Shown here piece by piece: positions 1 through 63,357 of a stretch of 64,000 nt of DNA; positions within the stretch are counted from its first letter, which is position 1, and each line of letters starts with the position of its first letter. Source of the stretch: Allolobophora icterica (lineage: Eukaryota; Annelida; Clitellata; Crassiclitellata; Lumbricidae); the NCBI GenBank assembly GCA_963556255.1, contig OY744611.1, positions 37,973,306 to 38,037,305 of the forward strand, written 5' to 3'. The notes below the pieces were generated by a model. The model ran no database searches and was not told where the DNA came from. It was given only the letters and a program-made list of their open reading frames with translations. Made by a program: the position numbers and the translations under genes.

Positions 1-619
1 TCGCGTCTGCATCCCCCTGCCGGCTCAGCAGTAAAGAGTGTTTGATCCCGTATACGACCTTGTGATAATCATCGCAAAAACCGAATAGATGTCTTAAGGG
101 AACGATGAATGAAAATGTGCCGATGGGGACGGGTTTTCCAATGATCATCAGTCGACGGGCCTCGAAGCCGATATTCGCGGCCGCCGCCGCCGCACTCGTG
201 TCCTTCTGCCAACACATGTTTAAACCTTCGCCTTTGGAAAAATCATCGCCGTATACCAGCATGCCTTTCATCGTCGTGGCTTGCCCAGGTGACATGACAT
301 TCTCTATCTCGGTATTGTTAGCCAGGTATCGAATTTGAGAAAACATGTACGGGATAGCATTGTTGATGAATGACACCAACGAGTCTGCGTTGTAACCCGC
401 GCCAGTTGATGTAATCCTGCCCTCCACAAGAAGGTAACTCTTAGAAGGCTGCGTGAAAATGTCTTGGTTCTGGATGTCTATCTGTATGGCCTGGCCATTG
501 TTAATAGCCGCAGGGTTTTGTGATTCATACTCGCGGTATTCAAACGATTCGATGCTATTATCATCGGGTACCGCCGAAGCGATGTCCAACATTTCACTCG
601 GCACGTCAAATGCCGCCAT
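1..619 (-). CDS. Polinton/adintovirus major capsid protein, N-terminal part (cut by window edge)
   Basis: An open minus-strand frame starts at the ATG at 619 and runs 206 codons without a stop to the left window edge, so only the N-terminal part is present. The protein starts MAAFDVPSEM. It contains stretches typical of Polinton double-jelly-roll major capsid proteins: an early SKSYLLVEGRI strand, a GMLVYGDDFSKGEG loop, and a segment with FIVPLRHLFGF. This family forms the pseudo-hexameric capsomers of the predicted virion. The gene is first in a minus-strand late-gene block with a core-like protein, minor capsid protein and ATPase, as in other Polintons. Upstream (620-729) is AT-rich and noncoding. 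Identification is from family resemblance read by eye. The C-terminal jelly roll and probably the protease gene lie outside the window. Confidence 0.85.
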   Translation of the reverse strand, partial: MAAFDVPSEMLDIASAVPDDNSIESFEYREYESQNPAAINNGQAIQIDIQNQDIFTQPSKSYLLVEGRITSTGAGYNADSLVSFINNAIPYMFSQIRYLANNTEIENVMSPGQATTMKGMLVYGDDFSKGEGLNMCWQKDTSAAAAAANIGFEARRLMIIGKPVPIGTFSFIVPLRHLFGFCDDYHKVVYGIKHSLLLSRQGDADA

Positions 620-729
620 TATTATAAGTAAAAAAGTTCAAGCTTCAATTATTAATCATGCTGTAAATGAAATTCATGTGTGGCGGGTAAAGCATTTTTT
701 GTGTTTTATGAATTAGTCGGAAATTTTTT

Positions 730-1188
730 TTATTTTGCGAGAAACAGACCCTTGCCGCCGCGACTCGGCTTTATAGTTTTGAAACCGGATCCAGCAATAC
801 GGCTGTTTATGTCAGCCATTGCCGGAACAACGGGTGGCGGACTCACAGCCAGTTGTTTTAAGTATTCGATGCTCTTGTCGCTGAGCGCCTTCTCCAAAGG
901 TGCGGGGACAACGGGCGCGGCAGCCGAATTTTCATTTCGTAAATGAGCTTCATTTACGGCTGCAGCGCGTCTCGCTTTCACGGCATCAACAATTTGCCTG
1001 ACGGCAGATGCTGTTGTGGCGCCGGCTTTCGCGACATTACCAACCGCCTTGGCAACGTTTGTGATTGTGCCTCTATTCGCCGAAATGAAGGAGCCTGCAC
1101 GGCCAAGGAAACCCGCGATTTTGGGTATCCAGTCGAAAAGTCCACCACCCACGACACGACGCCGCTTTTTAATTCCAAGAACCAACAT
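730..1188 (-). CDS. Small basic virion core-like protein of the Polinton (152 aa)
   Basis: I take the ATG at 1188 as start; an upstream in-frame extension has only a GTG. The protein opens MLVLGIKKRRRVVGGG, a basic stretch followed by glycines. An amphipathic/hydrophobic segment with LFDWIPKIAGFLG follows at about residues 17-30, then an Ala-rich helix and a Pro-rich C-terminal half. Small basic proteins with a GGG-hydrophobic segment recur next to the capsid genes of adintoviruses and Polintons, where they are considered core or membrane-active virion proteins. The exact role here is inferred from size, composition and position between the two capsid genes. It lies 22 bp downstream of the minor capsid gene on the same strand. 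Confidence 0.65.
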   Translation of the reverse strand: MLVLGIKKRRRVVGGGLFDWIPKIAGFLGRAGSFISANRGTITNVAKAVGNVAKAGATTASAVRQIVDAVKARRAAAVNEAHLRNENSAAAPVVPAPLEKALSDKSIEYLKQLAVSPPPVVPAMADINSRIAGSGFKTIKPSRGGKGLFLAK

Positions 1189-1210
1189 TAGAATATTCAA
1201 GTGTGAACAT

Positions 1211-2011
1211 TTACGCACTGCGGATGTGAAACCTTATAGTTACTGTCTCACCGCGGAGGTTTAATTGTTCACCATTCTGGTCGGTCAGCCACACACGAAT
1301 GCCCTGTACGTTACCAGCCGGTGCAACTGGTAGGTACACCAGATTTTTCGGAGACTCGATTACCTTGTAGCCGGGCGACACATCCGGGAAAAAACTGTAG
1401 ATTACTGGCAGCTGGCTACCATTTCGATACGATCCAGAGATAATGTCACAATTTACCAGGATTGTGTCCACGCGGAGAATATCGACTGGATTTTCTCCCT
1501 CTTTATAACCACTACCAAGCCTCTGAGGGTTAAAACCGAGCATTTGCCTGATGGTAGATTGAGCCATATTTACCTTATATAGGGCATTCGTAATTTTTAT
1601 GAAGGCGCGTAGGGTAGATGCGTTAGCTCCTATGGTAATAGGAGAATTAAAGCCGAGTGGTGCCACACCCGTCGGAGAATTTTGCTTTTCTAACTGCCTA
1701 CCGATTTCATCATTAATCTGTGCGATCTCGTAGCTTCCGTCGGGCAAAATGATCGTCTTCCACGTCACACCATTGTCGGTGCTGTAGACGAACTTGTTAT
1801 TTGAACTGTCAATGTTCGGAATCGAATTATAAGTTTCAAGATTGACCAAAGCAAGCTCAAAGCGTCTTTTTGGATCCAGGTACAGCGGTGGTGAGAAAGC
1901 CGTGGTCCACCCTGTAGTATCTGAGGAAACAACTATACTAAAATTTTCCTTAGGCTGTAAAAGTTCTCTAATTTCTTCGAGCAGTTTCTCCGAGCGTTCC
2001 ATCTGAGCCAT
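1211..2011 (-). CDS. Polinton minor capsid (penton-like) protein (266 aa)
   Basis: The start is the ATG at 2011 and the product is 266 aa. After a short charged N-terminal helix (MAQMERSEKLLEEIRELL) the protein is almost entirely beta-strand-like. It includes FSIVVSSDTTGW, FELALVNLETYNSIPNI near residue 50, and a WKTIILPDGSYEIAQIN segment near residue 85. This pattern (strand, FELALVN...YNS.PNI, then L..GSYEI..IN) is typical of the single-jelly-roll minor capsid/penton protein of Polintons and adintoviruses. It occupies capsid vertices in related viruses. Gene order (MCP, core-like, mCP on one strand) supports the call. The end carries LRGETVTIRFHIRSA, a plausible last strand. Confidence 0.8.
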   Translation of the reverse strand: MAQMERSEKLLEEIRELLQPKENFSIVVSSDTTGWTTAFSPPLYLDPKRRFELALVNLETYNSIPNIDSSNNKFVYSTDNGVTWKTIILPDGSYEIAQINDEIGRQLEKQNSPTGVAPLGFNSPITIGANASTLRAFIKITNALYKVNMAQSTIRQMLGFNPQRLGSGYKEGENPVDILRVDTILVNCDIISGSYRNGSQLPVIYSFFPDVSPGYKVIESPKNLVYLPVAPAGNVQGIRVWLTDQNGEQLNLRGETVTIRFHIRSA

Positions 2012-2029
2012 GAATTTTGTTTTCTATTT

Positions 2030-3133
2030 CTATTTTATGAGCATGTTTCTATTCAATTCGAGTGCCAGCTCTTTGGAGATCGCGCCGGAACGCAGTAACT
2101 CATCAAGAATGGCGGAGATTTCGTTGCCGAGACCTGTGTTTCCCGCGGCCCTAGAGGCCACCAAAAGCTGCAACCTCTCTACCAGGGCGTTTGGATCGTT
2201 GTAAAATTGCACCGCGCCGCCTCGAATCAACTGGAACTTTTTACTTTTCCGGCCATGAATAGGCAGACCAGACATCTGTACGAGCTTTTTGAAAGTTTCA
2301 ATTGCCTGAGGCGAATATTGCTTAGTCTTAACGAAGCGTTTCGTTAACAGGCTGAACAATGACTCATCGGCAGGAGCTTCGAGCACGAGGTTCCCACCTT
2401 TAAACACTCTTAGTCTACCAGCAGACAGCGCGACGGGGTCGACGGAGAGCTCACCCAAGGCGTTACCTTGTAATTTCAGAGGAACGGCTGGAACACTGAA
2501 ACCCTTTCCTTTTTTAGTGAGGGCGTGGCCTTTCAATAGCAAACGAATTCGATCTCTGTAGTCCTGTAGGACGCCGATATCTACGGCCAGCGCATGTACC
2601 TTTTCTTCGTCTCCGTTCTTATTGGCCTTCCTTTTCGCTTTGCCCAGGGTGTGGCGATTATAATAATTTACGCCTTCGATTATCTGTTTCACAGCTGCCG
2701 TGTCGTTCAGGTCGAGCTCGCTCGGAGGGGTAAAACCGTGCCGCCTGATTGCATCGACGTTGAGATGTCTGTTTGGGTGGACGAGCAATGCTTCCTGAGC
2801 GGGGTGTGCCGCAATCGCCGGAAGGGCTGGAGGAGCAGTTGCTCCAACGGAATCACCGAACAACGCCGCTATCGGGTTATAGTTAGCAGACTCTGAAATC
2901 TGCGCCGGCAAATCCTGTAAAGCGCTGGTAACTTTCTGCAACTCCTTAGACGTAGCCGCCTGTGATTCAGCCGTGGCTGTGGCGATTGGTTTGAAAAGCT
3001 TTGCCGCATCGTACTGAAGGTTGGCTTCACCGAGCTTCTCATCCACGAAACGCTGTCTCAATCGATTTCTACGAGCTAAGTAATCCTGAGTTAACGCGTC
3101 TCGCTCCTGTTTAGACGAAACCTTTGTCCACAT
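2030..3133 (-). CDS. Uncharacterised Polinton protein (367 aa)
   Basis: ATG at 3133 starts with MWTKVSSKQERDALTQDYLA. I do not recognise a domain of known function. The N-terminal ~120 residues are helical and charged (RRNRLRQRFVDEKLGEANLQ, then a KELQKVTSALQDLPAQI stretch). The middle is basic with NKNGDEEKVHALAVDIG and a long helix. The C-terminus contains a FYNDPNALVERLQLLVASRA motif and ends in a helix with LDELLRSGAISKELALEL. Proteins with this C-terminal pattern recur in Polinton gene blocks, so it is probably an element-specific structural protein. It ends 18 bp before the minor capsid start. Its start codon and upstream sequence are duplicated (see 3122-3311). Confidence 0.75.
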   Translation of the reverse strand: MWTKVSSKQERDALTQDYLARRNRLRQRFVDEKLGEANLQYDAAKLFKPIATATAESQAATSKELQKVTSALQDLPAQISESANYNPIAALFGDSVGATAPPALPAIAAHPAQEALLVHPNRHLNVDAIRRHGFTPPSELDLNDTAAVKQIIEGVNYYNRHTLGKAKRKANKNGDEEKVHALAVDIGVLQDYRDRIRLLLKGHALTKKGKGFSVPAVPLKLQGNALGELSVDPVALSAGRLRVFKGGNLVLEAPADESLFSLLTKRFVKTKQYSPQAIETFKKLVQMSGLPIHGRKSKKFQLIRGGAVQFYNDPNALVERLQLLVASRAAGNTGLGNEISAILDELLRSGAISKELALELNRNMLIK

Positions 3134-3311
3134 CGTGGTTGTATGCCGACTATATCTTGTAAGTTCTCAAGTGTGACAAGTTTCACAATGTGACTGATAA
3201 TATCGTCACAACTGTCACGCTAAGGTATTTTTTTATACACATTCAATCAATCAGTAACGATAACTTTTGTCCACATCGTGGTTGTATGTCGGCTATATGT
3301 TGCCTATATCG
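3122..3311 (-). promoter_or_regulatory. Duplicated promoter/start region with palindromic GTGAC/GTCAC array
   Basis: A segment of about 37 bp spanning the start codon of the 367-aa gene (3122-3158) recurs at 3265-3301 with few changes. Between the copies is a cluster of GTGAC and GTCAC pentamers in both orientations (3171-3218). On the coding strand both copies contain ATGTGGACAAA. The upstream one opens a 9-codon ORF, a possible upstream ORF or decoy start. A TATA-like word (GATATAG) lies about 25 bp upstream of the real start on the coding strand. It may be a promoter, replication or silencing site; function is inferred. Confidence 0.5.
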
Positions 3312-3316
3312 TGTCT

Positions 3317-4003
3317 TTAAATACTTGCCTTGGGCTTATAGAAGCGATCGAACCCGCAACGATATTTTCCATCGTACACCTTGGACGTCAAATCTATGAC
3401 TGCGAATCCATATGGTTGGGCAGCGCACTCGCTGAAGAACGTACGGAATTCATCGAAAGACATGTCGCCGCCCACGAACGTATCGTGAATGGCTCGCAAA
3501 TTTTTGCTGTCTTGGTTGAAGAGGACGATAAGATTAGCATTGTCACGGATCGCTTGCTTCGGAATTCGAAAATAATTCTGCGTTAAGTAGAAGCAGTCCG
3601 CGCCACCGTGTCGACCCATAGTGAAATACCTTTCAATGGGCGACTGTTTTTCAAGCATGACGTCATCGAACACTAGAAGGCTTCTGGCATTCTTATTTAA
3701 TGATTCAACTGGAACTATTTCATCTGAGCAAGAGTGAAAGGAAGCCACTTCCTTCCCGGCAACTTTTTCCAACTCTGTAACCCAGTCCCGGAGGAACTGG
3801 TATTTTTCCTGCCCCAGAGACTTCGAGTATAGATACAGCCGATCAAAACGCAGGTACCCCTTTTTCAGAAGGAGGTTGAGCAGTAGGTTTGTTTTCCCAC
3901 ATCCGCTAGGCCCGCAGATTATACACCGTATACTGGATGGCAACAACCAATGGTGGTGTTTTTTTCCATCGACGGCTTCGAGATCGAAATTTGTTATTTC
4001 CAT
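3317..4003 (-). CDS. Polinton packaging ATPase (FtsK/HerA, A32-like), 228 aa
   Basis: I place the start at the ATG at 4003; the frame is open further upstream but would overlap the divergent gene. The 228-aa product has a Walker A GPSGCGKT at residues 31-38 and a Walker B LLVFDD at 109-114. A GRHGGADCFYLTQNYFRIP segment follows near 130-150, with the conserved Q/N typical of A32-like ATPases. In Polintons and related viruses this enzyme pumps DNA into the capsid. It is transcribed toward the capsid genes and away from the PLA2/integrase pair, from a shared region of about 40 bp. All motifs are intact. Confidence 0.93.
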   Translation of the reverse strand: MEITNFDLEAVDGKKHHHWLLPSSIRCIICGPSGCGKTNLLLNLLLKKGYLRFDRLYLYSKSLGQEKYQFLRDWVTELEKVAGKEVASFHSCSDEIVPVESLNKNARSLLVFDDVMLEKQSPIERYFTMGRHGGADCFYLTQNYFRIPKQAIRDNANLIVLFNQDSKNLRAIHDTFVGGDMSFDEFRTFFSECAAQPYGFAVIDLTSKVYDGKYRCGFDRFYKPKASI

Positions 4004-4041
4004 ATAGAGACAACGAGTTATGATTGTATTCAACGAAAACA

Positions 4042-4608
4042 ATGTATTGCCTTCGATGTAAGAAACATACTGAGACTTCAAATGAAACAATCGTCGAGTT
4101 ACGAAACGGTCGGCCAGCCAAGAAGGGAACCTGTGCCGTCTGCGGTGCAAAGAAGAGCCAAATTTTGCCTTCTAAAGTGCGAAAGCATAAGTCTCGTGAG
4201 ACTTATGGAGGCTCGCTACTGAATAGGGCCCTCAACGCTCTACCTCTACCAGAAATGCATATGAGCCTTCCATCCGGTATGTCTTCGGAAGATAATCCGG
4301 GAGGTTCTTTTCAGAATACGGGAAAGTACTCTTACTGTGGGCCATTCACAAAACTCGATAAACGGCTGTCACAGCGATATCACGGTGTTAATCAGCTCGA
4401 CCGTGCGTGCCTCCACCACGATGTGGCTTATGCAGTTCATAAAGATACCCCAGGGCGTAACCACGCAGATGACATCCTCGCTGCAGCCGCGTCGAAGATC
4501 GCACTCACCGATGAAACTCCGGATTATGAGAAGAAGGATGCCCGGCTCGTATCGGCCATTATGTCAGCGAAGTCGAGGCTAGGGATGGGTGTTGGACGGC
4601 GGCGCTAA
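4042..4608 (+). CDS. Zinc-ribbon plus parvovirus-type phospholipase A2 protein (188 aa)
   Basis: The ATG at 4042 is preferred. The frame is open a few codons further, but only from a TTG, and the ATG gives the typical MYCLRCKKH start. Residues 3-6 and 31-34 are CxxC pairs with NGRPAKKG before the second pair, matching a DUF5679-like viral zinc ribbon. The C-terminal half has YCGP at 98-101 (calcium-loop position), then LDRACLHHDVAY at 119-130 with the HD.xY catalytic pattern. This is the phospholipase A2 fold best known from parvovirus VP1 and found in some adintoviruses, where it helps virions breach endosomal membranes. The end is very basic (MGVGRRR). The stop overlaps the first possible integrase ATG (TAATG). 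Confidence 0.87.
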   Translation: MYCLRCKKHTETSNETIVELRNGRPAKKGTCAVCGAKKSQILPSKVRKHKSRETYGGSLLNRALNALPLPEMHMSLPSGMSSEDNPGGSFQNTGKYSYCGPFTKLDKRLSQRYHGVNQLDRACLHHDVAYAVHKDTPGRNHADDILAAAASKIALTDETPDYEKKDARLVSAIMSAKSRLGMGVGRRR

Positions 4609-4661
4609 TGAAAATCATTTGTGTATGTGTTTACCTGTTTGTAATATATAGTATTACTGAA

Positions 4662-5675
4662 ATGTCTAAGCACCTTTCAGCCGTCTATTACAGCCCTAGA
4701 GGTTACTGGCGAGGTAAGGCTGCGGTGAAGAAACTAGCCGTGGCCGCCAAAGTTTCCGAGGCCGAGGCTCGCGATTGGCTGAAGAAACAAGCTGTGTGGC
4801 AGATTTATCTACCCGTTCCACGCCGCATACCGCGTCCAAAGTTCGAGGAAACTCGACCAAACGCCGTACACCAAGCCGATCTCTTGTTTTTACCTCACGA
4901 TAAAGTAGGTCGAAAGACTTATAAATACGCTCTCACTGTTGTTGATGTTGCCTCACGATACAAAGAAGCTGAACCGTTGATCAACAAAAGTGCGACCGAA
5001 GTCGCCGCCGCTTTAAGCCGGATCTATAAGAGGGGCCCATTAACTTGGCCTCGACTCTTTCAGGTCGATCCTGGACGCGAATTTATGGGTGATTTTACAC
5101 CATTGCTGACGAAGCACGACGTTCTTGTAAGACGCGGACAGGCCGGAAATCATCGCCAACAGGGCATCGTTGAACGCTTTAACCGTACTCTAGCTGAGCG
5201 ACTCTTCGGTGCTCAATACGCTCAGGAATTGCTCCTGGATGCAAGGGGGTCATCCGAACGGTCAGTGGAATGGGTTCGACGATTGCCCGAAGTTGTAGCT
5301 GCACTAAACGATGAGCCGACGCGCTTGCTCGACATGAAGCCGGTTGAAGCGATGAAAGCTGCTAAAGTGACGCAGAAGCCCTCTCATTCACAAATGAAAA
5401 CTCGTTTGTGGGGAATGGATGAGCCTATTCTCGGACACGACGTTCTCGTCCGCTATTTGTACGCTCCCGGCGAGCTCGAAGGTGGAAGCAAACGTGCCAC
5501 CGATCCTAACTGGTCGCTCACCATCCACGCTATTTTGGATGTTGTTCGGCGGGCTGGTAAACCGGCTTTATACCATCTAGTTGATGGGCCTGGCCGCGGT
5601 TTTGTACGTGAGGAGCTGCTTCTGGTGCCTATGGGCACTGAGCTACCCCCCGATAGAATACTCAACCGTCGTTGA
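4662..5675 (+). CDS. Polinton retrovirus-like integrase (337 aa)
   Basis: The frame is open from an ATG at 4608, but the second ATG at 4662 (MSKHLSAVYYSPRGYW) matches the usual start of Polinton integrases. Residues 1-50 form the HHCC-like/helical N-terminal region. The rve catalytic core has its acidic triad at D73 (HQADLLF), D136 (FQVDPGREF) and E171 (GIVERFNRTL), a DD34E spacing. The C-terminal region (about 250-337) contains GHDVLVRYLY and a beta-rich chromo/SH3-like tail ending LLLVPMGTELPP. It would insert the element with a short target duplication. It is convergent with the polymerase gene, overlapping its 3' end by 14 bp. Confidence 0.95.
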   Translation: MSKHLSAVYYSPRGYWRGKAAVKKLAVAAKVSEAEARDWLKKQAVWQIYLPVPRRIPRPKFEETRPNAVHQADLLFLPHDKVGRKTYKYALTVVDVASRYKEAEPLINKSATEVAAALSRIYKRGPLTWPRLFQVDPGREFMGDFTPLLTKHDVLVRRGQAGNHRQQGIVERFNRTLAERLFGAQYAQELLLDARGSSERSVEWVRRLPEVVAALNDEPTRLLDMKPVEAMKAAKVTQKPSHSQMKTRLWGMDEPILGHDVLVRYLYAPGELEGGSKRATDPNWSLTIHAILDVVRRAGKPALYHLVDGPGRGFVREELLLVPMGTELPPDRILNRR

Positions 5676-8600
5676 TTTTGTAGTGCCCATATGCCAGCGT
5701 TGTTATCCCGTCCGGAGAAATCCACTTTTTTGTGTCTAATGGAGAGAGGCTGATCTTATTCTGCTCGTACACTCCGATCTGGTGGTCGTGGCTTCTAATC
5801 ACGACTTGTGTGTGCCGCATCTCTTCTCGTTCGAACAGGCATTCCTTGTATAGCTCGTGGTGCAGATCCTTCTTCACAACTGCTCTCTGAACGCCTTTTG
5901 CTTTCCTGATCTCTGAACCACCCGATTTTAAGATCGAGTACATTTTCGGACGCAGTCCCACGAATTGGGCTATGGCAACTCCGTTACATTCATCTTTGAA
6001 CTTGCCCACGACTTTCTTGTTCTCGACGTCGTAATAGGGGCTGTCTCTTGGAAACTCTGAGAGGTCGTATAGGTGTTTTTTATTCCACATATCGGCATAG
6101 GCGTTCGGAGTTTCCACCTGAAATAACAGGCTGTCAGTGTCTGTATATAGCAACTGGGCTTTTTCTCCGTACTCATTTTTTACATCGTTGTACCAGAAGT
6201 CGTACATCAGATGCTTGCTGAGGTCCAGGACAGCCTGACCAACATATACAGGTCTGTTTAACTTGAGCTTGTTCTTCAAACTGTGAATCGCGGCGAGTTG
6301 GTCGTTGAAAATTTTGTGTGATATGTAGGCCGGGTCAGCAATTAGTTTACGAAGTTTGTCAACTTTTGAGGTCGGCACCAGGTTAACTCTGATTCTTTTT
6401 CTAAGATTTTCCATGGTCTTTCCAAAGACCGCATTATTAGCCAGTTTGAAGAAATCCTTCTCAAACTCCGACGTTGCCTTCGCTCTCAATTTCGTATTCA
6501 TCTCGATGTATGGAGCCATCCATGCCTCCTGTCTAAACTTAATGACACGATGAATTTTAGAAACTCGTAGCCCTAACGAGTGGTAGAGTTTGAGATTTCT
6601 ATAATGGACCACATACCGCTCCTTAGGTCGTAGGCTTGGTACTAACTTCACATGCTTTGTGAACTTGCCTCCCAACTCGTTCATAAGCACATTCTGATAG
6701 TCACTCAACCACTCCTCTTGGACTGTCAGGGTCTCCGGTGCTAAGGGATAGTCGCTATGTGATTCGTGGAGGTGCTCCGGGTACCCGAGATCGACTTCAA
6801 GTAGGAAGCCTTCGGGCGCGTCGTCTGGAGTTTCCAACACTTCATCGAGAGTTGGACTTGCCCAGCTAAATCCTCCAACTGGCAGTGGCTGTTGCATCGC
6901 CCAGCCGTAAAGATTATTCGCGTCGAGATACATGATCCAGTTGTCTGGCTTCGTGGTATCGTGATCTGGGCATTGCGGGTTGTTGGCTTTTGCGAAGCGC
7001 TTGGATACCATCGAAATTCCGCCTCGGAGACCTTTCTCTACGAACAAGTGCATGTCTATATCGGTTAAAAGTTCGAGCTCGATTTTTGTCTTTTTCAACA
7101 AAGCGTCCCAGGCCATTCCTGGTAGGCTGAAGTAGTTAGCCGGGTCCAGACTGTAGTGTTTCATCGATGTGGACCTGAAGGTCTCGAAGACATCTGCCAG
7201 TAGGAGTACATCCGTACGGAGATACAAGTCGTGATAGTCACCTAGAGTTTTACAATCAAATTCGTTCCACACTCTTTGAGCGTGTTCATAATCCTCATCA
7301 GAGATGTTCTCTCGGGACAGCCTGCTGTAGAACGCTTCTTTAGGTGGAAGTCGGTCTTCTTCGAAGCGGTGGTAATCATGGATGTATTCGTAACAATATA
7401 CGCCCTTTCGTCTCAACAGATCAAGTTTTGTCCTTTCATTGTGAACGAAACTTTCCTTTATATATGCTGCTGTGACTTTCAAATCCTCTAGCGATAGGTT
7501 TCCTGATAATTTATCCAAAGAGCTGTTTAGAAACTGGAGACTATCGATGAACTGTAGTTGTCCAATGTTAAATGTCATGTATTTCTCCATATTGTTTGGA
7601 ATACAGTTAATTTCAGTTGCCTCATCCTGTGCGGCCTCACAGCCTCCGATCGCTTGCATTATGAGGTGGCTGTCGTAACCTCGCAGATTGTGGAAGACCA
7701 CTGGTACCTTGCACTTATCTGGATATATTCGAAGCTTGAGGTTGCAGGCGTTGTGAGCGGCACCTCGGTACTTACCGGTAATGTGGCAGTGGTCGCGAAC
7801 TCTATCCTCTTCGAGCGCATTTCCGCAGATGTGACAATCGATAGCTTCGCGGAATGATTGGCGATCAACTGCTGACATAACCATCTTAGCCGGGGTGGCC
7901 AGCCTTTGTCTGATAGAGTCCAGCTCGCCTTGTATTCGTTGTAGGAATTGTTGCACGGCGTCCTCTCCACGATATAAAACTGGTTTCTTGGTGCGGCCAT
8001 CGTATCGAACCACTATGTAACAGAAGCTACACGGTTTCTGCTCAGCTATCTGTCTGGTGTTGCTCTTGCTGGGGTTCATGACTGCACCTTCGATTGGTAT
8101 GTTCAACGCCTCAAAGTCTGCGTATATGATATATGGGGTTTGTATCTGTTTGTGGTGGTTCTGGAATTTGAGGATATTTTCATCCTCTTTTGGCATCTCA
8201 ATTCGCTGAGGCTTCTCACTGATACCCTGGCAATCTTTGATATGGGCATCCAGCAAGTCTTGTCTACAGAATATGTGTAGGCAGCGACGACATGGGTGTT
8301 TCTTGCTTTTGTCTTTGCTATTTTGATTAAGAATTCGGCCAAGGTCTTTAATCCAGACGTAGTGGTAATTCTCGCCACTGACTAACAGTAGAAGATCGAT
8401 ATTATAGTCTCTATTGGTCTGCTTTGAGACATAAATTGGATACAAAGCTTTATCCCACCCGAAGACTGAGACGCTTATATTAGGGTTCTGACGTTCGAAC
8501 TTACCGATATCTGTGACCTTCACTGGAAATTCTATACCATCGAAGTTTAGCTCGAGGAGGTGGCCCCGATACTTAGTTGGGCGATCTGGATTTTGCCCAT

Positions 8601-9408
8601 GACCTACTGGATACATAGCACTTAATATGGCCCACTCGAAGCATCGGTTATCTTTATTCTTTACATTAATAACCGTACGAGGGGGTATATACTTTGGTGT
8701 AGGAAAGTAGCTCCTTGCACGAAATGGTTGATATTTTGCAACGCTGAGGTCTACCGCCACGACCCGCCTCACCCTCCAGCCTGACCCCTCATTGGTATAG
8801 TCCTCGAGGCTTTTTAGTACTTCGGCCTTGGCCTTTCGTACAGCCCCTTGGATTTTACTCGCATTCGTAATTGGCGCTGCTTTGCTTCGAAAGTAGGCCG
8901 TATTGGTAATAGTACCCGGGGTCGCGTTTCCGTCGTACAACATGTCAACGGTCGGAGCCAGCTTTTCCAACTCAACTGTCAACACTTGCGAGTATTTCAG
9001 ACCGTCTTGTTTCAACAGCTCTTCGTTGAGTTGCGCCTCAATGTTATGCTCCATTGCACTCAAGAAAGCCAACGCATCTCTTTCCAGCCTGTGGTTAAGA
9101 GGTACTTCTGCACGGAAGTCTCTCAGAAGCTGATTGGCGAGCTCTTTGTGTACTAGAAATGGCGGTGGTCCACCTCTATCCTGCTTAATTAGGAGTGGGT
9201 CGAATTGTGCCAGAAGGGCCTTTCGTTTTGCCCCTCTATGCTTGCGCACTGGAGGAATTGGCCTTGGAAGCAGTGGCTGTAGTAAGCGCCTTTTGACTGC
9301 ATCTGGGATAGGTTCGTCTAAGATATTTTTTAGAACAGCTCGAAGAGCTGGGGGGCCAGTAAACTCACCCAACAATTGTGCAATTTTTTCATTCGTAGAC
9401 AATGCCAT
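5662..9408 (-). CDS. Protein-primed DNA polymerase B of the Polinton (1,248 aa)
   Basis: A single open frame of 1,248 aa starts at the ATG at 9408. After a ~230-residue N-terminal region come a DNRCFEWAILSAM segment (about 253-265) and a Cys/His zinc-finger-like stretch (about 371-393). The 3'-5' exonuclease motifs are YADFEA (~430), FHNLRGYDSH (~573) and LRTDVLLL (~730). An HNH/zinc-like CHICGNALEEDRVRDHCH block sits at ~525. Polymerase motif A is LDANNLYGW (~828), motif B is KLANNAVFGK (~988) and motif C is YTDTDS (~1089). These are the hallmarks of the PolB that replicates Polintons from a terminal protein. All catalytic residues are present and no stop or frameshift is seen, so the element may be functional. 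Confidence 0.97.
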   Translation of the reverse strand: MALSTNEKIAQLLGEFTGPPALRAVLKNILDEPIPDAVKRRLLQPLLPRPIPPVRKHRGAKRKALLAQFDPLLIKQDRGGPPPFLVHKELANQLLRDFRAEVPLNHRLERDALAFLSAMEHNIEAQLNEELLKQDGLKYSQVLTVELEKLAPTVDMLYDGNATPGTITNTAYFRSKAAPITNASKIQGAVRKAKAEVLKSLEDYTNEGSGWRVRRVVAVDLSVAKYQPFRARSYFPTPKYIPPRTVINVKNKDNRCFEWAILSAMYPVGHGQNPDRPTKYRGHLLELNFDGIEFPVKVTDIGKFERQNPNISVSVFGWDKALYPIYVSKQTNRDYNIDLLLLVSGENYHYVWIKDLGRILNQNSKDKSKKHPCRRCLHIFCRQDLLDAHIKDCQGISEKPQRIEMPKEDENILKFQNHHKQIQTPYIIYADFEALNIPIEGAVMNPSKSNTRQIAEQKPCSFCYIVVRYDGRTKKPVLYRGEDAVQQFLQRIQGELDSIRQRLATPAKMVMSAVDRQSFREAIDCHICGNALEEDRVRDHCHITGKYRGAAHNACNLKLRIYPDKCKVPVVFHNLRGYDSHLIMQAIGGCEAAQDEATEINCIPNNMEKYMTFNIGQLQFIDSLQFLNSSLDKLSGNLSLEDLKVTAAYIKESFVHNERTKLDLLRRKGVYCYEYIHDYHRFEEDRLPPKEAFYSRLSRENISDEDYEHAQRVWNEFDCKTLGDYHDLYLRTDVLLLADVFETFRSTSMKHYSLDPANYFSLPGMAWDALLKKTKIELELLTDIDMHLFVEKGLRGGISMVSKRFAKANNPQCPDHDTTKPDNWIMYLDANNLYGWAMQQPLPVGGFSWASPTLDEVLETPDDAPEGFLLEVDLGYPEHLHESHSDYPLAPETLTVQEEWLSDYQNVLMNELGGKFTKHVKLVPSLRPKERYVVHYRNLKLYHSLGLRVSKIHRVIKFRQEAWMAPYIEMNTKLRAKATSEFEKDFFKLANNAVFGKTMENLRKRIRVNLVPTSKVDKLRKLIADPAYISHKIFNDQLAAIHSLKNKLKLNRPVYVGQAVLDLSKHLMYDFWYNDVKNEYGEKAQLLYTDTDSLLFQVETPNAYADMWNKKHLYDLSEFPRDSPYYDVENKKVVGKFKDECNGVAIAQFVGLRPKMYSILKSGGSEIRKAKGVQRAVVKKDLHHELYKECLFEREEMRHTQVVIRSHDHQIGVYEQNKISLSPLDTKKWISPDGITTLAYGHYKINDG

Positions 9409-9569
9409 AGTTATAAATTATTTATACTACTGTGGCAAAGTTTTCCTTAATACAATAACAGAATCGTTTGTTTAAAATGAAATTTTGTTTACTAGATATT
9501 CGAATGTCGCTTGCCCATCTGTATTATCTCAATACAATAATGGAATCCTTTCTTTAATAGAGAATTTTT
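9409..9569. promoter_or_regulatory. AT-rich spacer upstream of PolB with an imperfect direct repeat
   Basis: The spacer between the polymerase start and the end of the small cysteine-rich gene is AT-rich. It contains two related blocks at about 9450-9505 and 9530-9580, each with AATACAATAA followed by GAATC and TTTAA. A TTTATAC word lies about 10 bp upstream of the polymerase ATG on its coding strand. It probably contains the PolB promoter; no experimental support is visible. Confidence 0.35.
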
Positions 9570-9860
9570 TTACTCTACTACTATGTTCGCTAGTCTTTTC
9601 CATTCTTTCTCGAATTCACGGGTTAGTCCGCAGCGTCGAACTCTTGATTTTATGACGTAATAATCACAACGTATACACTCACCTAAGTGGTTTTTGATTC
9701 CCCTTCCACATTTAGCGCACGGTCTTGTCTCAAAACCATTTCGCAGCTGTGCTAAATGTTTGAAACAGTGCTCCCCAATACATCTGCGACAGCACAGATT
9801 TGTTTTACCTATAACCAACCACTTGCAGAAGTTTTGCCCCAACATTATGTTTTTATACAT
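9570..9860 (-). CDS. Small cysteine-rich zinc-binding protein at the Polinton right end (96 aa)
   Basis: The ATG at 9860 gives 96 aa; a second ATG at 9845 (MLGQNFCKW) is an equally good start. The sequence carries CCRRC near residues 23-27, then CFKH, CAKCGRG near 48-54 and CIRC near 61-64. This is a pattern of paired CxxC/CxxH metal ligands. The remainder is basic (SRVRRCGLTREFEKEWKRL). I do not recognise a named family. Size, position upstream of PolB and same strand suggest an accessory gene of the element, possibly nucleic-acid binding. No other coding frame competes here. Confidence 0.55.
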   Translation of the reverse strand: MYKNIMLGQNFCKWLVIGKTNLCCRRCIGEHCFKHLAQLRNGFETRPCAKCGRGIKNHLGECIRCDYYVIKSRVRRCGLTREFEKEWKRLANIVVE

Positions 9861-9937
9861 ACCACAACTGATTCTTTTATTTAAATTGAAAAAATATTCA
9901 AAACAAGGCTAATTATTATTATTATTATTATTGTTAT

Positions 9938-10177
9938 TGATTTATACTCCTTCACCGTATGAGGCGCCACAGTACATAGATGCCATAACCAAAATAATAA
10001 GGACTTCCAAGTCTTTAATTATACAAGTCCTTTAAACATGATTTATACTCCTTCACCGTATGAGGCGCCACAGTACATAAAAAATAGGCCGCTGTTGGAT
10101 TTAAGGCTTACAGTCATCGCCTGAAAGTGCACGGCGTCGATATGGGTGATGATCGGTCAAAATCCTTATTATTTTGG
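9938..10177. repeat. 41-bp identical direct repeat and 15-bp inverted repeat at the Polinton flank
   Basis: A 41-bp sequence containing CTCCTTCACCGTATGAGGCG occurs at 9938-9978 and again identically at 10039-10079. Around the second copy, CCAAAATAATAAGGA (9989-10003) is matched as an inverted copy at 10163-10177. This could mark the right end of the Polinton, or a small non-autonomous element of about 190 bp next to it. The left terminal repeat is outside the window, so the boundary cannot be fixed. Confidence 0.45.
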
Positions 10178-10215
10178 CCTGTGTTTATGGTTCGCTTGTT
10201 GTAAACCCAGACCGC

Positions 10216-10310
10216 GGTGGATGGATGGATGGATGGATGGATGGATGGATGGATGGATGGATGGATGGATGGATGGATGGATGGATGGAAAATGATGGAT
10301 AGATAGATGG
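10216..10310. repeat. (ATGG)n microsatellite
   Basis: About 18 uninterrupted GGAT tetramers (to 10290) are followed by degenerate GATGGATAGAT units. Long open frames across it on either strand (HPSIHPSI repeats) are simple-repeat artefacts. Confidence 0.95.
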
Positions 10311-10423
10311 AAAGGATGATGGATGAACTTTACGTAAATGCAATGTAGGCCTATATCCCCGAGATTTCTCAGCGCTAAACAAAGCCGCATCATGTGAAAC
10401 AGGATGCTTACTAATGGAATATA

Positions 10424-10660
10424 ATACAAAGCAATAAATCACTTAGGTGGTTGCGGAGACCGCTGCACTGATGGAAAATAATACGCATCTGTTTTATATC
10501 AAGCGTTGAATGATGCGGCCTAAAGCCTCTGTGTGGGTACAAAGCAATAAATCACAATTAGGTAGTTGTCAGAGACCGCTGCACTGATGGAAAATAATAC
10601 GCATCTGTTTTATATCAAGCGTCGAATGATGTGGCCTAAAGCCTCTATGCGGGCATATGT
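10424..10660. repeat. Tandem duplication of a ~117-bp unit
   Basis: The segment beginning ACAAAGCAATAAATCAC at 10424 and running through GAGACCGCTGCACTGATGG and GCGGCCTAAAGCCTCT is repeated from 10541, with a few substitutions and a small indel. Origin unknown. It lies between two tetranucleotide arrays. Confidence 0.8.
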
Positions 10661-10848
10661 CTTCCTCTGTGTGTGTGCCTGTGTGCGCCTCTGTGTGTGT
10701 CTCTGTCTGCATCTGCGTTGGCCTGTGTCTGCCTTTTCGGTTCTCCGCACAATGGTTAAGTCAAAAGCTATAGTTAATATCAAGAGTCTCATAAAAGCAC
10801 AAATAATTTGGCTGAACCCTAATGGCCTCATAGCGGCCAGACGATATC

Positions 10849-10935
10849 CGTATGTATGTATGTATGTATGTATGTATGTATGTATGTATGTATGTATGTA
10901 TGTATGTATGTATGTATGTATGTATGTATGTATGC

Positions 10936-10966
<31 letters not shown>

Positions 10967-11036
10967 TGTATGTATGTATGTATGCATATGTATGTATGTA
11001 TGTATGTATGTATGCATATGTATGTATGTATGTATT
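10849..11036. repeat. (TATG)n microsatellite
   Basis: About 45 TATG units are interrupted by three TGCATA variants. The MYVCMYVC and IHTYIHTY open frames across it are artefacts of a tetranucleotide array readable in every frame. Confidence 0.95.
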
Positions 11037-11387
11037 CATTGTATTGTCATGAATCTCATGTATCATTGCTGGCTAGCCTTGCGGCGTAGCCGCATGCAGG
11101 CGTTCCGCTCTGGGGCTAAACTTTGCTGGCTGGGCCAGGCTGGGGTAGCCGCGCGCCTGTCAGTCTCTGTGCGAGTCTTAACTATCGACTTATATGGACC
11201 GTCGCAAATTTTGGTGGCTGGGCAGGCTGCGCGTAAGAGTCTCTGATGCTTACTAATGGAAGTGGGCAGGCAGGCAGGCAGGCAGAGCAACGTGGGTGTT
11301 TATATATAGGACCTGCTCAGTCTGGATTGACATCCCATGTGTCGGAAGACGGTTGTTGAACGGTAAACGTGCTATAATCATTCGGAA

Positions 11388-11732
11388 ATGGACAAGGAAC
11401 AGAAATTTTTGCGAGCTTTAGCTGATATTCCATTTAAAGAGGTTAGTAAAAAAGAGAAAATTAAATCTGTAGAAATGCAGCTTAGAAGAATAAATCAAAA
11501 TTACAGAAAGACGAAACAGCGGCTGAATGAATCGGCGTTAAAATTAAAGCAGCTCGCAATTAAACGGAAGTCGCTGCGTGAGAAAGTTAACGGGCTAAAG
11601 GTAGGCGTAAATGAAGATTCAGATTCTGAATGTGAAAATTTACAACTGCCCCAACAGGTAGAAGATGCAATTTTAGCAGCCTTGGGTGAACCTGTCGTGG
11701 AGAATATGGAGGACGATGATATTAATTTGTAG
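11388..11732 (+). CDS. Unidentified small coiled-coil ORF (114 aa)
   Basis: An ATG-initiated frame encodes 114 aa starting MDKEQKFLRALADIPFKEV. Residues ~20-75 are Lys/Arg/Gln/Leu-rich with heptad-like spacing (MQLRRINQNYRKTKQRLNE), predicting a coiled coil. The C-terminal third is acidic (NEDSDSECEN, then ENMEDDDINL). The composition is natural and unlike the neighbouring repeats, so a real protein or a transposon-encoded accessory protein is plausible. I do not recognise the family. No splice signals are needed and no partner gene is visible nearby. Confidence 0.4.
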   Translation: MDKEQKFLRALADIPFKEVSKKEKIKSVEMQLRRINQNYRKTKQRLNESALKLKQLAIKRKSLREKVNGLKVGVNEDSDSECENLQLPQQVEDAILAALGEPVVENMEDDDINL

Positions 11733-12433
11733 TTGTTAAATTCTCTAAATTTTAATTCTTCCTTACAGTCAGGCTATAACAAATTTTGAGCTCATACGGC
11801 GCTGTTATAAGGACGGATGCCCTAACACGGTAAAAAATTTTCCTTCGAGCCTGGCTATTACGGATTTTTAGCTGATGCCGTGCCAGTATAAGGCTGATAT
11901 AGCATAGCTCTGTGAAAATTTTAAAGATTTATATTGGCATCGTTATCAGGGCGCGGTGTGTGGCAAAGTGGCGTTTGTCTCATAATTAAAAACCGCAGGA
12001 GCCCATTGATAGCTTTGTGACGTGGCGAGTTCAGGCCGCCATCAAAATAAGCCTGTGCCCTCGCAGCTTTTTGTGGGATATATTTTTGTTTTTCACTAAA
12101 AGTTTAGACGATTCCAATACAGGCAACACAATAGACCCTGAAATATCATTACATAGTATTTGTCGTTCAACAATCGTGTTCTACACATGGGGGCGGAAGA
12201 CCAGCAGTTAGCTGGGAGGAGGCCGTCGGTGTCTCGAAGACGCCCTGATGAGTCCAGGCAAAACTCGTGTTGTCTTTGAGACTACGGTCTTGGCCTTGGT
12301 CTTGAGGACAATTCTTGCTGCACAGGACGAAACGGAAATCCACCCAAGGAAAAAACCAATCATCTGGTGAGTAGTGATTCTACTTCTTTCTGTATTAAGC
12401 GAAAAAAGTATATATTACTGGTGTAATGATGAT
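11733..12433. other. No gene recognised
   Basis: No convincing coding frame is seen. At about 12240-12320 there is a short GTCTTGGCCTTGGTCTTGAGGACAA-type stretch, related to the terminal arrays of the decayed hAT element at 16.3-21.2 kb and probably a fragment of that family. Confidence 0.4.
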
Positions 12434-12707
12434 CATAGGCGCCGACTTCTTGGGGGCCTTGGGTGCATTGCACCCAGAGAAAAAGTTCGGTGGGGGCCTG
12501 GCCCCCAGAGGAATTCGGACCTTAAATTAAATTTTGGGGTATTCCTAAAAAGGTCGTTACATTTTTATGGGGATGAATTCCTAAAAGTCGCCAAATTTTA
12601 GGAGACATGGCCCCCTTTTATTTTTTGACGGATGACTAAAAAAAATAAGCCTTCTGGATCCGCCCCTGACTGGCACCCAGAGACAAAACCAAAAGTCGGC
12701 GCCTATG
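12434..12707. mobile_element. Non-autonomous hAT-like MITE (274 bp)
   Basis: The ends are inverted repeats CATAGGCGCCGACTT...AAGTCGGCGCCTATG. The flanks are 8-bp near-duplicates, atgatgat (12426-12433) and atgacgat (12708-12715), as expected for a hAT insertion with one later mutation. No coding capacity. Confidence 0.75.
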
Positions 12708-12940
12708 ATGACGATTATGGTATAATTATGATTATGATTAAATAATGTCTCTGTCTATCTCTCTACCTCTCTCTCAGTCTCTCTATTTCCATTCTTTCAT
12801 TCATTCGTTCTGTGAATTTAAAATAGCCCCTTCAAGATACCTACTCAGGAGCGCCGCACCGTTTTTTAAAAAATATTCAACTTGGCGTATATTCCTAATT
12901 TAAATAGTTAAAGCTGTTATTACACTCCTAGCTTAAAAAC

Positions 12941-12999
12941 GTGACAGATGTGACGATAATATCTGTCACACTGTGAAAGTTGTCACACTCGAGGACTTC
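12941..12999 (-). promoter_or_regulatory. Second copy of the Polinton palindromic GTGAC/GTCAC array
   Basis: Read on the minus strand, about 58 bp here match the array inside the Polinton (3161-3218) with roughly seven differences, including the order of GTGAC/GTCAC words and the central GATA.TATCGTCACA. The TATA-like downstream part is also partly kept. It may be a remnant of another Polinton or an independent mobile promoter-like unit. Confidence 0.5.
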
Positions 13000-14030
13000 T
13001 AAGCTATAAGCGTTCGTGGATTCCACGGACTGCCTGGAAGTCGGCCTGCTATAATTGTCCGTGGGTTTCAGGACCCTCTGGAAGCCTAGATGGTATAGAT
13101 CGGCATCCTCTTAATTCGGTGAGATAAGGGAGTGGTGGGGACCAGAAAAACTGGGTGTTGTAGGCCAGTCAAAACTGGTTTTTAAACGTAATTTTGGTAA
13201 TGTCCCCAACCCCGTGTTACTAATCTACTCATGTCCATATGCGAAGCTTCACATTTTCAAATTTTCATGTTGTTGTAGCTAGCCCTAATTTAGCGCTACA
13301 ATATGCGACGCCATTTTCGGATCAGTTAATAGTTAATACATTTCAAGAAAATGGAATTGAATTCAATGGATGTTTAATTGTTTTAAGGCTGAACATTAAT
13401 AATTTTATATACGTAAGTTTATTAAATAAATTCTGAACAGAACAAATTTTTTGCAACTATTTGCGTCTACAATATTTGCCGAGGCGAATACTTCCGGAAA
13501 CGGGATTTCCGGCCGAACCGAGTATCCGAAACGGTTTCCGGTCAATCCCTAGTAATGAGTAATACTGCAGATTGAACCTCTTCACAATAGTTTTATCCAC
13601 TGCCTTGATACAGTGTTCCATGCTCTCAGAAGTCAACCTTTGTTTTATACTTGGTAACGACTAATAATGCGTGTAGTCCAGGATTCAAACCTCTCCACAG
13701 TTTTTTCCACTGGCTTATTAGAGTGCTTTGTTCTTTCTGAAGTTAACATTTTTTTTTTTACTGGTACTGACTAGTAATGCAGTCCAGTATCGATGGTCAT
13801 CTGCTCTTTTGATCACTCAAATATCCTTGCTTACCATTTACACAGCAATGCTGTGAAATAATGTCCTGCTATTTTGTATTTAATTCTAAAAGTATTTTGG
13901 CAGTGTGAAGGGTATAGCTTACTTTTAGCTAGATCTGTATGTGTGTCTTCCTGCATGTATGTATGCATTCGTACATATCTGTGTGTATTAATGTACAGAC
14001 TGCTTTAGCCTGGATATGGCAGAATATGTA
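13000..14030. other. No gene recognised; intron-like sequence upstream of the 14.3-kb exon
   Basis: There are no supportable coding frames. The part from about 13690 to 14230 is a duplicate of 34455-34830, apart from the microsatellite at its end. It is best seen as intron of the gene whose last exon is at 14321. Confidence 0.5.
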
Positions 14031-16434: not shown

Positions 16435-17542
16435 CAGTGGCGTACGGAGCTGAATGCCGCCCGGGGCGAGGGCCCAAAATGCCGCCCTTGGCCACAATTT
16501 TCGATATGCTATTTTCTCTAAGATATTGCACGACGATCGTATTACCGTACATATGCAGTTTTATTTTTTAACAGTTTATAACCTTTCTGGATTTTTCACT
16601 TTCAACCTAGGCCTACTTGTAATTATCCGTTTTAGTTAGGCCTATACATTTTCAACTGACTGAACTCTATTTTATTAGATAATAAAACATTTTATTGCAT
16701 GACTTGCTACTGTCGCTGTTTCGCTGTTATGTGTACAGTACAGTACATACGTAGGCCTATACATACGTGTTATATTTTGTTACAATTAGGCCTAGGTCCT
16801 ACCATAAAATTATTGTCACAATTTCGTGGAAGCAGCGTAATGATAGTGTAAGCCCTACGTTCGCTATACAAATACAGCGCTGCATTATAAAGAGATTATT
16901 ATTAGTCACCGTTATTCCACAATAACCTACAGTAACGATGTGAACACGACTTACTGTGCTCAGTAGAAGGTTAGGCCTACGTTTTAATAAAAATTAAAAA
17001 TGTATTTTATTTACTGGATAATAATATATCCTCTTATTTAGTAAACATTGCAAAACAACTGCAGTCTGCAGCATTGTTGCAAAAACGTCAAAGGAAAAAT
17101 ATTAATAGCGAGCAACCGAGATTCGAAAATAAGATTCGAAAATAACTGAATAGGCCTACAATTACTAAACCATGTTAAAAGGATAGGCCTAAGTGGTCAT
17201 TTCAAATGACAAAGTCATGCAGTCAATTTCTGTCAAACCAGACCAATTTATAAAATTAATTTTAAAAAGAGGTCTAAACCAATTGGGGAAAGACTGTGGT
17301 GGTGATGAGATATCGAAAGTTTGTGATTAAATTTTATTCTAGGCCTAAGTATACTTCGTTTAGGTACCTATAATACCTATAGATACATAGGTGTATATAT
17401 AATGATTATGAAGGGCGGCATAACTAGATTATGCTTTAAAATAGACCATGCTGTATGTAGTCTGTCATTCTTTTTACAGTTTACTAGATAAGCGATTCCG
17501 CTTCCTTTTCTGCAATTCTGTTTAGTCTCATGAGCGTGATGC

Positions 17543-17745
17543 GGTTTACTATCAGAAGGGCGAGTTCGGAAGGGCGACTATCAGAAAGGCGACTTCGGAA
17601 GGGCGAACTCCTAAAGGGCGCCTGTTCACAAAAGCGCCGCTCAGAAGAGCGCGCTATCAGAAGAGCGCGCGTTCACAAGGGCGACGATCAAAAAGGCGAC
17701 GATCATAAAGGCGAAAATATAGGTTGAAATCTAAAAGGCGACGAT
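17543..17745 (+). repeat. Left terminal inverted repeat of the MULE
   Basis: Built of short GGGCGA/AAGAGCGCGC modules. It is closely matched by the reverse complement of about 20000-20171. At 17722-17775 there is also a ~46-bp direct repeat (GGCGACGATCATAAAGGCGA). Confidence 0.85.
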
Positions 17746-17891
17746 CATAAAGGCGAAAATATAGGTTGAAATCTTTAATCTGTACGACAAAAATATTGAA
17801 CTAAGAAATTGATAATCATCAGTTCAAATGTAGGCCCTGTTGTCCTAAATGTTTTTCAATACGGGTAGGCTTACTAATAATAGTAATCAGT

Positions 17892-19058: not shown

Positions 19059-19128
19059 CTAAAATACATAAGCAAGAGTTATTGTCGCCAATCCAGCTTC
19101 TATTTAAAATTATCTTAAATAAAATAAT

Positions 19129-19300
19129 TTAGAGCGTTAAATGCCTCCCAAATCTAGCACGACTAAGAAGAACCGTTTTAAGGTGATAAAAGAACGTAAA
19201 ACAGAATGTCCTAGGGAAAAGGCGAAGCTCCAGAGGAAGGCCATTCCAGGTCGAGGGACCCACCGCCGAGAAAGCCCTGTAATAATATTTAATCTGGTTT
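19129..19300 (-). pseudogene. LINE reverse-transcriptase C-terminal fragment inside the MULE intron
   Basis: On the minus strand a short frame reads AFSAVGPSTWNGLP and then FYHLKTVLL. This is the familiar C-terminal end of CR1/L2/jockey-like ORF2 proteins (GP..WN.LP...F...LKT.L). It is truncated and has no other LINE domains. It sits in the intron between the two transposase exons and was probably captured there. Confidence 0.5.
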
Positions 19301-19379
19301 CCGCGACTTCGCTTTTGTGGGCGCTCTATAAATCTCGAGATTAGTATTAATAAAGATAACACTAAGTGTCGTTACATAC

Positions 19380-19634
19380 CGCCGCGTTCTGCTTGATCTC
19401 GGCAATCACCTTCTTGCTAACCAGTTTAGCTTTATCCGGAACGTGATTGTGTTGAGTCGGCTGCTTAGTCAGAATTCCATCTTTGGAGTGACAGCGGGAC
19501 TTACACTTAGCTGTACGGTATTCAGTGCACTTCCAGATTTTCTTTTCTGTTATTGTTTTTTCAAGTCTGAATGTACAACCATCGACCACTAACATTTCTC
19601 GACCTTTGTTGCTCATGACAAATTCTAGCTCCAT
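19380..19634 (-). CDS. MULE transposase, exon 1 (FLYWCH zinc finger)
   Basis: Starts at the ATG at 19634 (MELEFVMSNKGREMLVVDG) and runs 85 codons to a GTATGT donor at 19379-19374. The sequence contains FRLEKT, IWKCTEY, CKSRCHSKDG and QHNHVPD, a FLYWCH-type zinc finger (F-x-L, W-x-C, C, H-x-H). Such a finger precedes the catalytic domain in many animal MULE transposases and binds the element ends. Phase 0 joins it to the frame opening at 19058. Confidence 0.85.
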
Positions 19635-19717
19635 TCTTAAACTGCTCCTACGACGAACTGACAGTTTTTCTTGGTTCAGACTTCGATTTATATACCCTTC
19701 AGGTTTGGGGCGAATAT

Positions 19718-39029: not shown

Positions 39030-63357
<24,328 letters not shown>

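Follow-up and report, generated by a model that had tools for sequence, protein, structure and literature searches.

Polintons, or Mavericks (class Polintoviricetes), are described in PMC11071308 as carrying a family B DNA polymerase (PolB), a retrovirus-like (rve) integrase, an Ulp1-type protease, a packaging ATPase, a major capsid protein (MCP) and a minor capsid protein (mCP). One such element is considered here, from the annelid Allolobophora icterica. It lies partly in a 64,000-nucleotide stretch of DNA called the window (C11:37973306-38037305, where C11 is contig OY744611.1 of a chromosome-scale assembly of 1,117,693,669 bases in 328 contigs) and partly in a separate 8-kb piece directly to the left of the window, called L017. 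Very probably it is a midsize DNA virus integrated into the genome: a recent insertion, intact by its looks, from a Polinton family with many copies.

Three other described systems are close to it. Intact Mavericks of vertebrates are treated in PMC8097293, which reports 134 elements from 17 species, 12.7-24.6 kb long and with 6-bp duplications; 96% of loci are eroded there, and a genome holds at most 38 intact elements. Adintoviruses, as characterized in PMC11071296, have an OTU-like PolB and a hexon that are recognisable by BLASTP, together with a chromodomain integrase. Finally, the Maverick of the snail Potamopyrgus antipodarum is 13 kb long, amounts to 3.5 Mb in hundreds of copies, and is analysed in PMC12596079 as a transposon family.

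The annelid element resembles the Polintons of PMC11071308 in its PolB, rve integrase, A32-type ATPase and double-jelly-roll (DJR) capsid protein, in having candidates for an mCP and an adenain-like protease, and in its size and its terminal inverted repeats with AG ends. Beyond the gene set given in that account, it has fibre-like, phospholipase A2-like (PLA2), PX-like and 367-amino-acid (aa) proteins and a variable right arm. With the intact vertebrate Mavericks, as far as they are described in PMC8097293, it shares a size range, repeats, intronless open genes, purifying selection and accessory flanking regions. It differs from them in gene order and in its target duplication, which is 5 bp rather than 6 bp in all ten elements that have both ends. 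PMC8097293 holds the sole statement on duplication length in Polintons that was found, and a length of 5 bp is not claimed here as unpublished. At least 114 copies are present, against at most 38 per genome in the vertebrate account, the criterion being an intact integrase here and a whole element there.

The PolB, rve integrase, hexon, PX- or PLA2-type and coiled-coil proteins and candidate adenain-like protease also recall the adintoviruses of PMC11071296; this is a likeness by gene set that does not establish strict membership, and in Pfam at E values up to 1 the element gave no chromodomain or OTU family match. With the snail Maverick as presented in PMC12596079 it has in common a recent burst to high copy number in an invertebrate. 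It is thus a known kind of element, whose 5-bp duplication, copy number with intact integrase and mosaic swarm are notable variant features.

Ends of the element and state of its genes

The whole Polinton is 18,871 bp long (C11:37967664-37986534). It begins 5,642 bases before the left edge of the window and ends at window position 13,229. The two terminal repeats were found by matching L017:2354-2648 to window 13233-12941 in inverted orientation, with 92.9% identity over the whole match of 295 bp. The outer right repeat (window 13033-13229, minus strand) is identical over its 197 bp to L017:2359-2555, and the outermost bases are AGTAG. Strongly diverged repeats, which the first-pass annotation had named as a contrary sign, are not seen in the outer 197 bp, where there are 0 mismatches; the inner part does differ. 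Beyond the repeats stands a perfect 5-bp target-site duplication, CATGT, at window 13230-13234 and L017:2354-2358.

The first-pass annotation had ended the element at 9,860. Since the left repeat matches window 12,941-13,233, the right end is at 13,229 instead, and an open reading frame (ORF) of the right arm, at 11388-11732, was missing from the earlier gene list. The same match rules out a right end at about 10,080-10,217, which had been suspected from 41-bp repeats and microsatellites.

The nine frames annotated in window 1-9860 are indeed open, and no stop interrupts their 3,106 codons. Stop-free runs reach 1,251 codons in this region, against at most 209 in a set of 100 first-order (dinucleotide) Markov sequences. 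The leftward continuation that had been expected was found as well. The rest of the MCP, a protease-like frame and the left terminal repeat are all present in L017, and neither stops nor deletions were met there. Six frames, each on the minus strand of L017, are open: the remainder of the MCP, a PX-like protein, the protease-like frame, a fibre-like frame, and two small genes for products of 184 aa and 201 aa.

Two upper bounds can be placed on the age of this copy. The lack of stops in 3,106 codons limits neutral divergence to 0.83% (95% upper bound, with kappa assumed to be 2), and the lack of differences in 2 x 197 bp of repeat gives 0.76%. Both combined give about 0.40%. These bounds assume no selection after insertion, and they apply to a window that drew notice by its open frames.

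Copies, selection and mosaic genomes

Related copies were sought in the genome with the integrase protein. From 5,476 first-look candidates, 114 matches were scored; counts of this kind are lower bounds. Every one of the 114 scored integrase copies is without stops; they are 97-100% identical and lie on many chromosomes. Twenty copies were picked by hand from across this list, with the top ranks over-represented.

Left and right repeats could be paired in 9 of these 20 copies. The remaining 11 showed no pair in the fetched stretches, whose position had been guessed from the geometry of the window. The nine copies and the window element make up ten elements with both ends. All ten start with AGTA, and all have perfect 5-bp duplications, each different from the rest: CATGT, CCCCG, ACGAG, ACTAA, TAGGT, AGTCA, TAAGC, CCTGT, TAAGT and TATCT.

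Within an element, the outer 190 bp of the left and right repeats are similar, with 0, 5, 0, 1, 0 (plus 2 gap columns), 5, 0, 4, 4 and 0 mismatches in the ten elements. Between elements, the left repeats differ from that of the window by 3-38 mismatches plus gaps. Low differences within copies and high differences between them show that the repeats are equalised before insertion and drift afterwards, so that the outer part of the repeat can be used as a clock. Over their whole length, the left and right BLAST matches of the nine copies are only 86-99% identical because the inner parts differ by insertions and deletions.

Two placements may be mentioned on their own. At C9:48278203-48283708, two intact integrase copies lie 3.4 kb apart, counted from the end of one to the start of the next, the first on the minus and the second on the plus strand, perhaps as a nested or rearranged pair. 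At C11:38113494-38114558, about 136 kb from the integrase gene of the window, there is a second integrase-intact copy with its own duplication, AGTCA.

The genes of the copies are mostly open. For PolB, 17 of the 20 sampled copies keep an open frame of more than 1,150 codons. At eight integrase loci, that of the window included, the ATPase and the integrase are open in all eight, and PLA2 and the end of PolB in seven each. Five capsid-side stretches, namely both halves of the MCP and the genes for the core-like, mCP and 367-aa proteins, are open in 8/8 other copies over the matched stretch, which begins at residue 4, 7 or 10 of the 367-aa protein in three copies and at residue 3 of the mCP in one. 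The first-pass annotation had taken the element for the product of recent activity or an integrated virus and not for an old fossil, with decay in all relatives as a contrary sign. Open genes, matching ends and many stop-free relatives agree with that view.

Selection was measured by the ratio of nonsynonymous to synonymous differences (pN/pS). Among the eight integrase loci the ratio is 0.017 for the ATPase and 0.186 for the integrase; it is 0.052 for the end of PolB (seven copies) and 0.124 for PLA2 (two copies of equal length). For PolB over 18 sequences it is 0.150, with 152 of 153 pairs below 0.5. On the capsid side the values are 0.070 and 0.072 for the MCP halves, 0.339 for the core-like, 0.293 for the mCP and 0.247 for the 367-aa gene, and in the same order 25, 35, 27, 33 and 35 of 36 pairs fall below half. 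Amino-acid change is selected against in every gene tested. Selection on the capsid genes suggests that the lineages were transmitted mostly as functional, probably packaged, genomes.

The copies are not equally distant from each other. Two of them, on C4 and C6, have identical PolB with no difference counted, while synonymous differences in PolB reach 34% between others. Differences of this size mean that the lineages split long before the present insertions, as functional genomes.

Distances also change along the element. Copy C4-79.4 has 100% identity to the window in several capsid-gene blocks of 200 bp, and 99.5-100% in most of the integrase, but just 78-82% at 2400-2800 and 71-73% at 8200-8600. 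Copy C8-59.0 shows the reverse pattern, with 88-96% in parts of 0-1000 and 98% at 2400-2800. One pair, with 167 differences over 3,277 aligned columns, has stretches at 78-82% identity next to long identical runs, the top three measuring 717, 701 and 466 columns; 500 random placements of the differences gave no run above 214. Local constraint alone is not sufficient for such runs, since variation is seen within these blocks in other copies.

A similar picture is given by distance matrices for five gene stretches in nine elements. Their correlations range from -0.12 to 0.56, and the Mantel p value is above 0.05 in nine of ten tests. The MCP correlates with the parts of PolB at r 0.03-0.17, and the mCP with the C-terminal part of PolB at r 0.56 (p 0.028). 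For instance, C4-79.4 and C3-52.2 are identical in the stretches from the first half of the MCP, the mCP and the 367-aa gene, and yet in PolB neither is the closest copy to the other. Recombination between lineages replicating together explains this mosaicism most simply, and it places different lineages in the same cells. Alternatively, gene conversion between chromosomal copies may have produced it.

Genes of the element and its surroundings

The capsid-side and packaging genes are all on the minus strand. The first 206 codons of the MCP lie at window 2-619 (Pfam DJR-like, 3.2e-11) and the other 224 at L017:7327-7998 (DJR-like, 5.9e-38); the frame is continuous across the window edge, as the edge codon reads Ile. 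The ATPase, of the A32/FtsK-HerA type, has 228 aa from its ATG (3317-4003; Pfam Pox_A32, 4e-8). Pfam thus bears out the names first given to the MCP part and the ATPase, and likewise those of PLA2, the integrase and PolB, whereas family search leaves the names mCP, core-like and Cys-rich unsettled.

The "core-like" protein (730-1218) is glycine-rich and partly hydrophobic. Its frame begins with GTG and has an ATG at 1188. No family was found for it in Pfam; it is possibly a membrane-active capsid protein. The candidate mCP, or penton protein, of 266 aa (1211-2011) is named from its position and length. In Pfam it has a sub-threshold match to DUF5901 only (4.5e-4), its fold model is uninformative (predicted local distance difference test, pLDDT, 36), and BLASTP gave no significant match to a candidate in L001, a virus contig introduced below.

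The 367-aa protein (2030-3133) is a conserved alpha-helical or coiled-coil protein with 32 homologues in public proteins. It retains 50 of the 53 columns that are conserved in at least 90% of the 19 other aligned homologues. Its fold model is weak (predicted template modelling score, pTM, 0.31). The model weakly resembles a DUF8207 protein from a bracovirus record, a match that serves as a lead only; a literature search for the word DUF8207 found no paper. It is a candidate for a capsid-surface (Cah-like) protein.

Among the left frames, the PX-like protein of 163 aa matches Adeno_PX at 6.3e-4, under the curated cut-off. The fibre-like frame of 728 codons, for a protein of about 720 aa, matches PHROG families, one of which is named as a tail protein (3e-4), and has a sub-threshold F5/8 type C match (0.025). 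The protease-like frame of 134 codons (L017:6406-6807, minus strand) is adenain-like and overlaps the end of the PX-like gene. Pfam gave no match for it. Its best matches in the PDB are adenovirus proteases (0.0027; 1avp, 0.016) and S273R of African swine fever virus (0.012), followed by beta-lactamases from 0.035. Residues H, D, Q and C were spotted by eye in this frame, in the adenain order.

On the plus strand are PLA2 and the integrase. The PLA2-like protein has 188 aa from its ATG (4042-4608; Phospholip_A2_4, 1.5e-9) and an N-terminal DUF5679 zinc motif (6.7e-14). The integrase has 355 aa (4608-5675; Pfam rve, 4.1e-10) and the residues D91, D154 and E189. A C-terminal chromodomain was looked for in Pfam at E values up to 1, where only rve and rve_3 were found.

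PolB, with 1,248 aa, lies on the minus strand (5662-9408; Pfam DNA_pol_B_2, 2.6e-21) and carries exonuclease and polymerase motifs. These motifs and the D-D-E residues of the integrase are present, as first described. Conserved Cys and His motifs at the N-terminus of PolB may be OTU-like, with no OTU family in Pfam at E values up to 1. The protein retains 331 of 341 columns conserved in at least 90% of the 17 other aligned homologues. Among 7,995 scored candidates in public proteins, 7,218 are PolB homologues, 120 of which were listed.

A tree built from 117 PolB sequences puts the window together with metagenome sequences and the land snail Bradybaena similaris in one 13-member clade (support 0.97); the PolB of the snail has 67% identity over 47% of the query. 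Scans of IMG/VR with PolB, the 367-aa family, the integrase and the MCP found no near relative, and phage records and Rfam gave no match. The PolB scan returned one distant locus, L001, and seven more in records of bacterial metagenome-assembled genomes, which are probably contamination from eukaryotes or viruses. L001, an IMG/VR contig, encodes PLA2-like, ATPase-like and large fibre-like proteins beside its PolB, and no integrase was recognised by eye in its ORF list.

The Cys-rich protein of 96 aa (9570-9860, minus strand) is an ORF with no family above the cut-off in Pfam. Upstream of it are identical 41-bp direct repeats (9938-9978 and 10039-10079). The right arm and the inner part of the right repeat follow (9861-13032), with microsatellites and a 116-bp tandem duplication. 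The arm has a lysine-rich, probably coiled-coil ORF of 114 aa on the plus strand (11388-11732), found in two other copies at 99% and 96% aa identity.

The right arm is shared unevenly. Window 10404-13220 is common to C9-28.0 and 11227-13229 to C8-59.0, both at 93.9% and both with the 114-aa ORF, and C3-52.2 has 12092-13148 at 88%. Copies C2-6.1, C20-15.7, C11-38.1 and C1-16.3 match the repeat region alone (about 12940-13220), and in C5-37.8 and C19-28.2 the match is limited to a short, weak piece of it. The right pieces of 11 of the 20 copies gave no match to the right arm of the window. The segment 9861-12940 is a variable accessory arm.

A 69-bp motif at 3151-3219 is 86% identical to 12940-13008, and a third copy is in the alignment of the left repeat. 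It is possibly a regulatory repeat. The idea that this stretch is a host repeat which had entered an old element was dropped when it turned out to be an inner part of the terminal repeats. The pattern has no match in IMG/VR. Flanking the motif, the opening codons of the 367-aa gene and their leader (3115-3159) are duplicated about 142 bp upstream, at 3257-3302, with 89% identity.

Elsewhere in the window, exons of a TRPM channel are found at 56160-56729 (3.8e-5) and 58731-59126 (best 6.4e-6 among 50 PDB sequences), which shows that the element is integrated in an animal chromosome. A Mutator-like (MULE-type) transposon at 17534-20180 has a MULE transposase domain (17895-19004), a FLYWCH finger (19365-19763) and 188-bp inverted repeats that are 93% complementary. 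At 30097-31128 there is a single-exon-looking ankyrin protein, for which a search of public proteins gave only two close homologues (61% and 53%).

Competing explanations and meaning for the family

The family is probably recently active and recombining, and it probably uses virions. A particle stage, the point on which this reading turns, is suggested by the constraint on the capsid genes, an argument of the kind made in PMC8097293. Judged by the protein families present, a linear genome would be replicated by PolB with protein primers at the AGTAG ends, and the ATPase would load it into a double-jelly-roll capsid that the protease matures. Attachment or entry and membrane passage may be the role of the fibre-like, PLA2 and coiled-coil proteins, and the integrase would insert the linear DNA with a 5-bp stagger.

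Several observations weigh against an intact and recently active virus. Its activity and particles are read from assembled sequence. The window was picked for its open frames, and the other copies were drawn from 114 integrase matches, the best among 5,476 first-look candidates, which under-represents decayed copies. Even so, 3 of the 20 have a damaged PolB, lost beyond its integrase-side end in one and broken in frame in two, and of the eight integrase loci one has a broken PLA2 and one a broken PolB end. All differences between the left and right repeats of the window element sit internal to the outer 197 bp. Lastly, the protease-like frame has no ATG, GTG or TTG before its conserved N-terminal stretch, and its first ATG lies past the conserved N-terminus, leaving an ORF of 101 aa. 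The full protease might be made by a non-ATG start, by a frameshift from the overlapping PX-like gene, or by splicing.

How such copies come to be in the genome can be explained in different ways. The family could be a live, recombining swarm of an integrating virus. Several lineages would then replicate side by side in the same cells, swap blocks of genes, make particles and return to the germ line, and the genome would keep a continuing record of a single virus species complex. This fuller picture is put forward tentatively, as somewhat less than probable.

Equally conceivable, and likewise a little short of probable, is an exogenous virus with several co-circulating lineages that infects the species now, the copies being repeated endogenisations. 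It would account for the several types of terminal repeat, for the synonymous difference of up to 34% among copies that are young by their repeats, and for the mosaic genomes. Homologues on metagenome contigs of about 15 kb (for example of the 367-aa protein and PolB, on a longest contig of 15,213) fit it too. Against this, no free genome was seen, the IMG/VR scans with the element's proteins yielded nothing closer than the one distant PolB, and the copies could equally descend from resident lineages.

A self-synthesising transposon confined to the germ line and making no particles is rather unlikely. Its capsid genes would have been kept because the source copies are few and young. The high copy number in one genome is what it would produce, and the 13-kb snail Maverick, with hundreds more copies than in congeners of that snail, is treated as a transposon burst in PMC12596079. 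The pN/pS of the capsid protein, however, is about 0.07, at or below that of PolB (0.15) and the integrase (0.19), and it is from the same pattern that PMC8097293 argues for particle-borne spread of fish Mavericks.

Segmental or assembly duplicates of one old insertion, as the near-identity of many copies in parts and the identical PolB of some might suggest, are refuted by ten different target duplications and different flanks in those ten elements whose two ends are known, and are very improbable overall; domestication of an old element by the host would explain open frames under selection, and is just as improbable when that selection spans many dispersed copies and replication, integration and capsid genes alike, and when terminal repeats and duplications are intact.

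Among Polintons, the 5-bp duplication shows that the integrase stagger is not uniform. In PMC8097293, particles of Mavericks are stated not to have been observed, and virion production by animal Polintons is an open question. With at least 114 integrase-intact, selection-marked and recombining copies, Allolobophora icterica is a host in which that question is directly testable.

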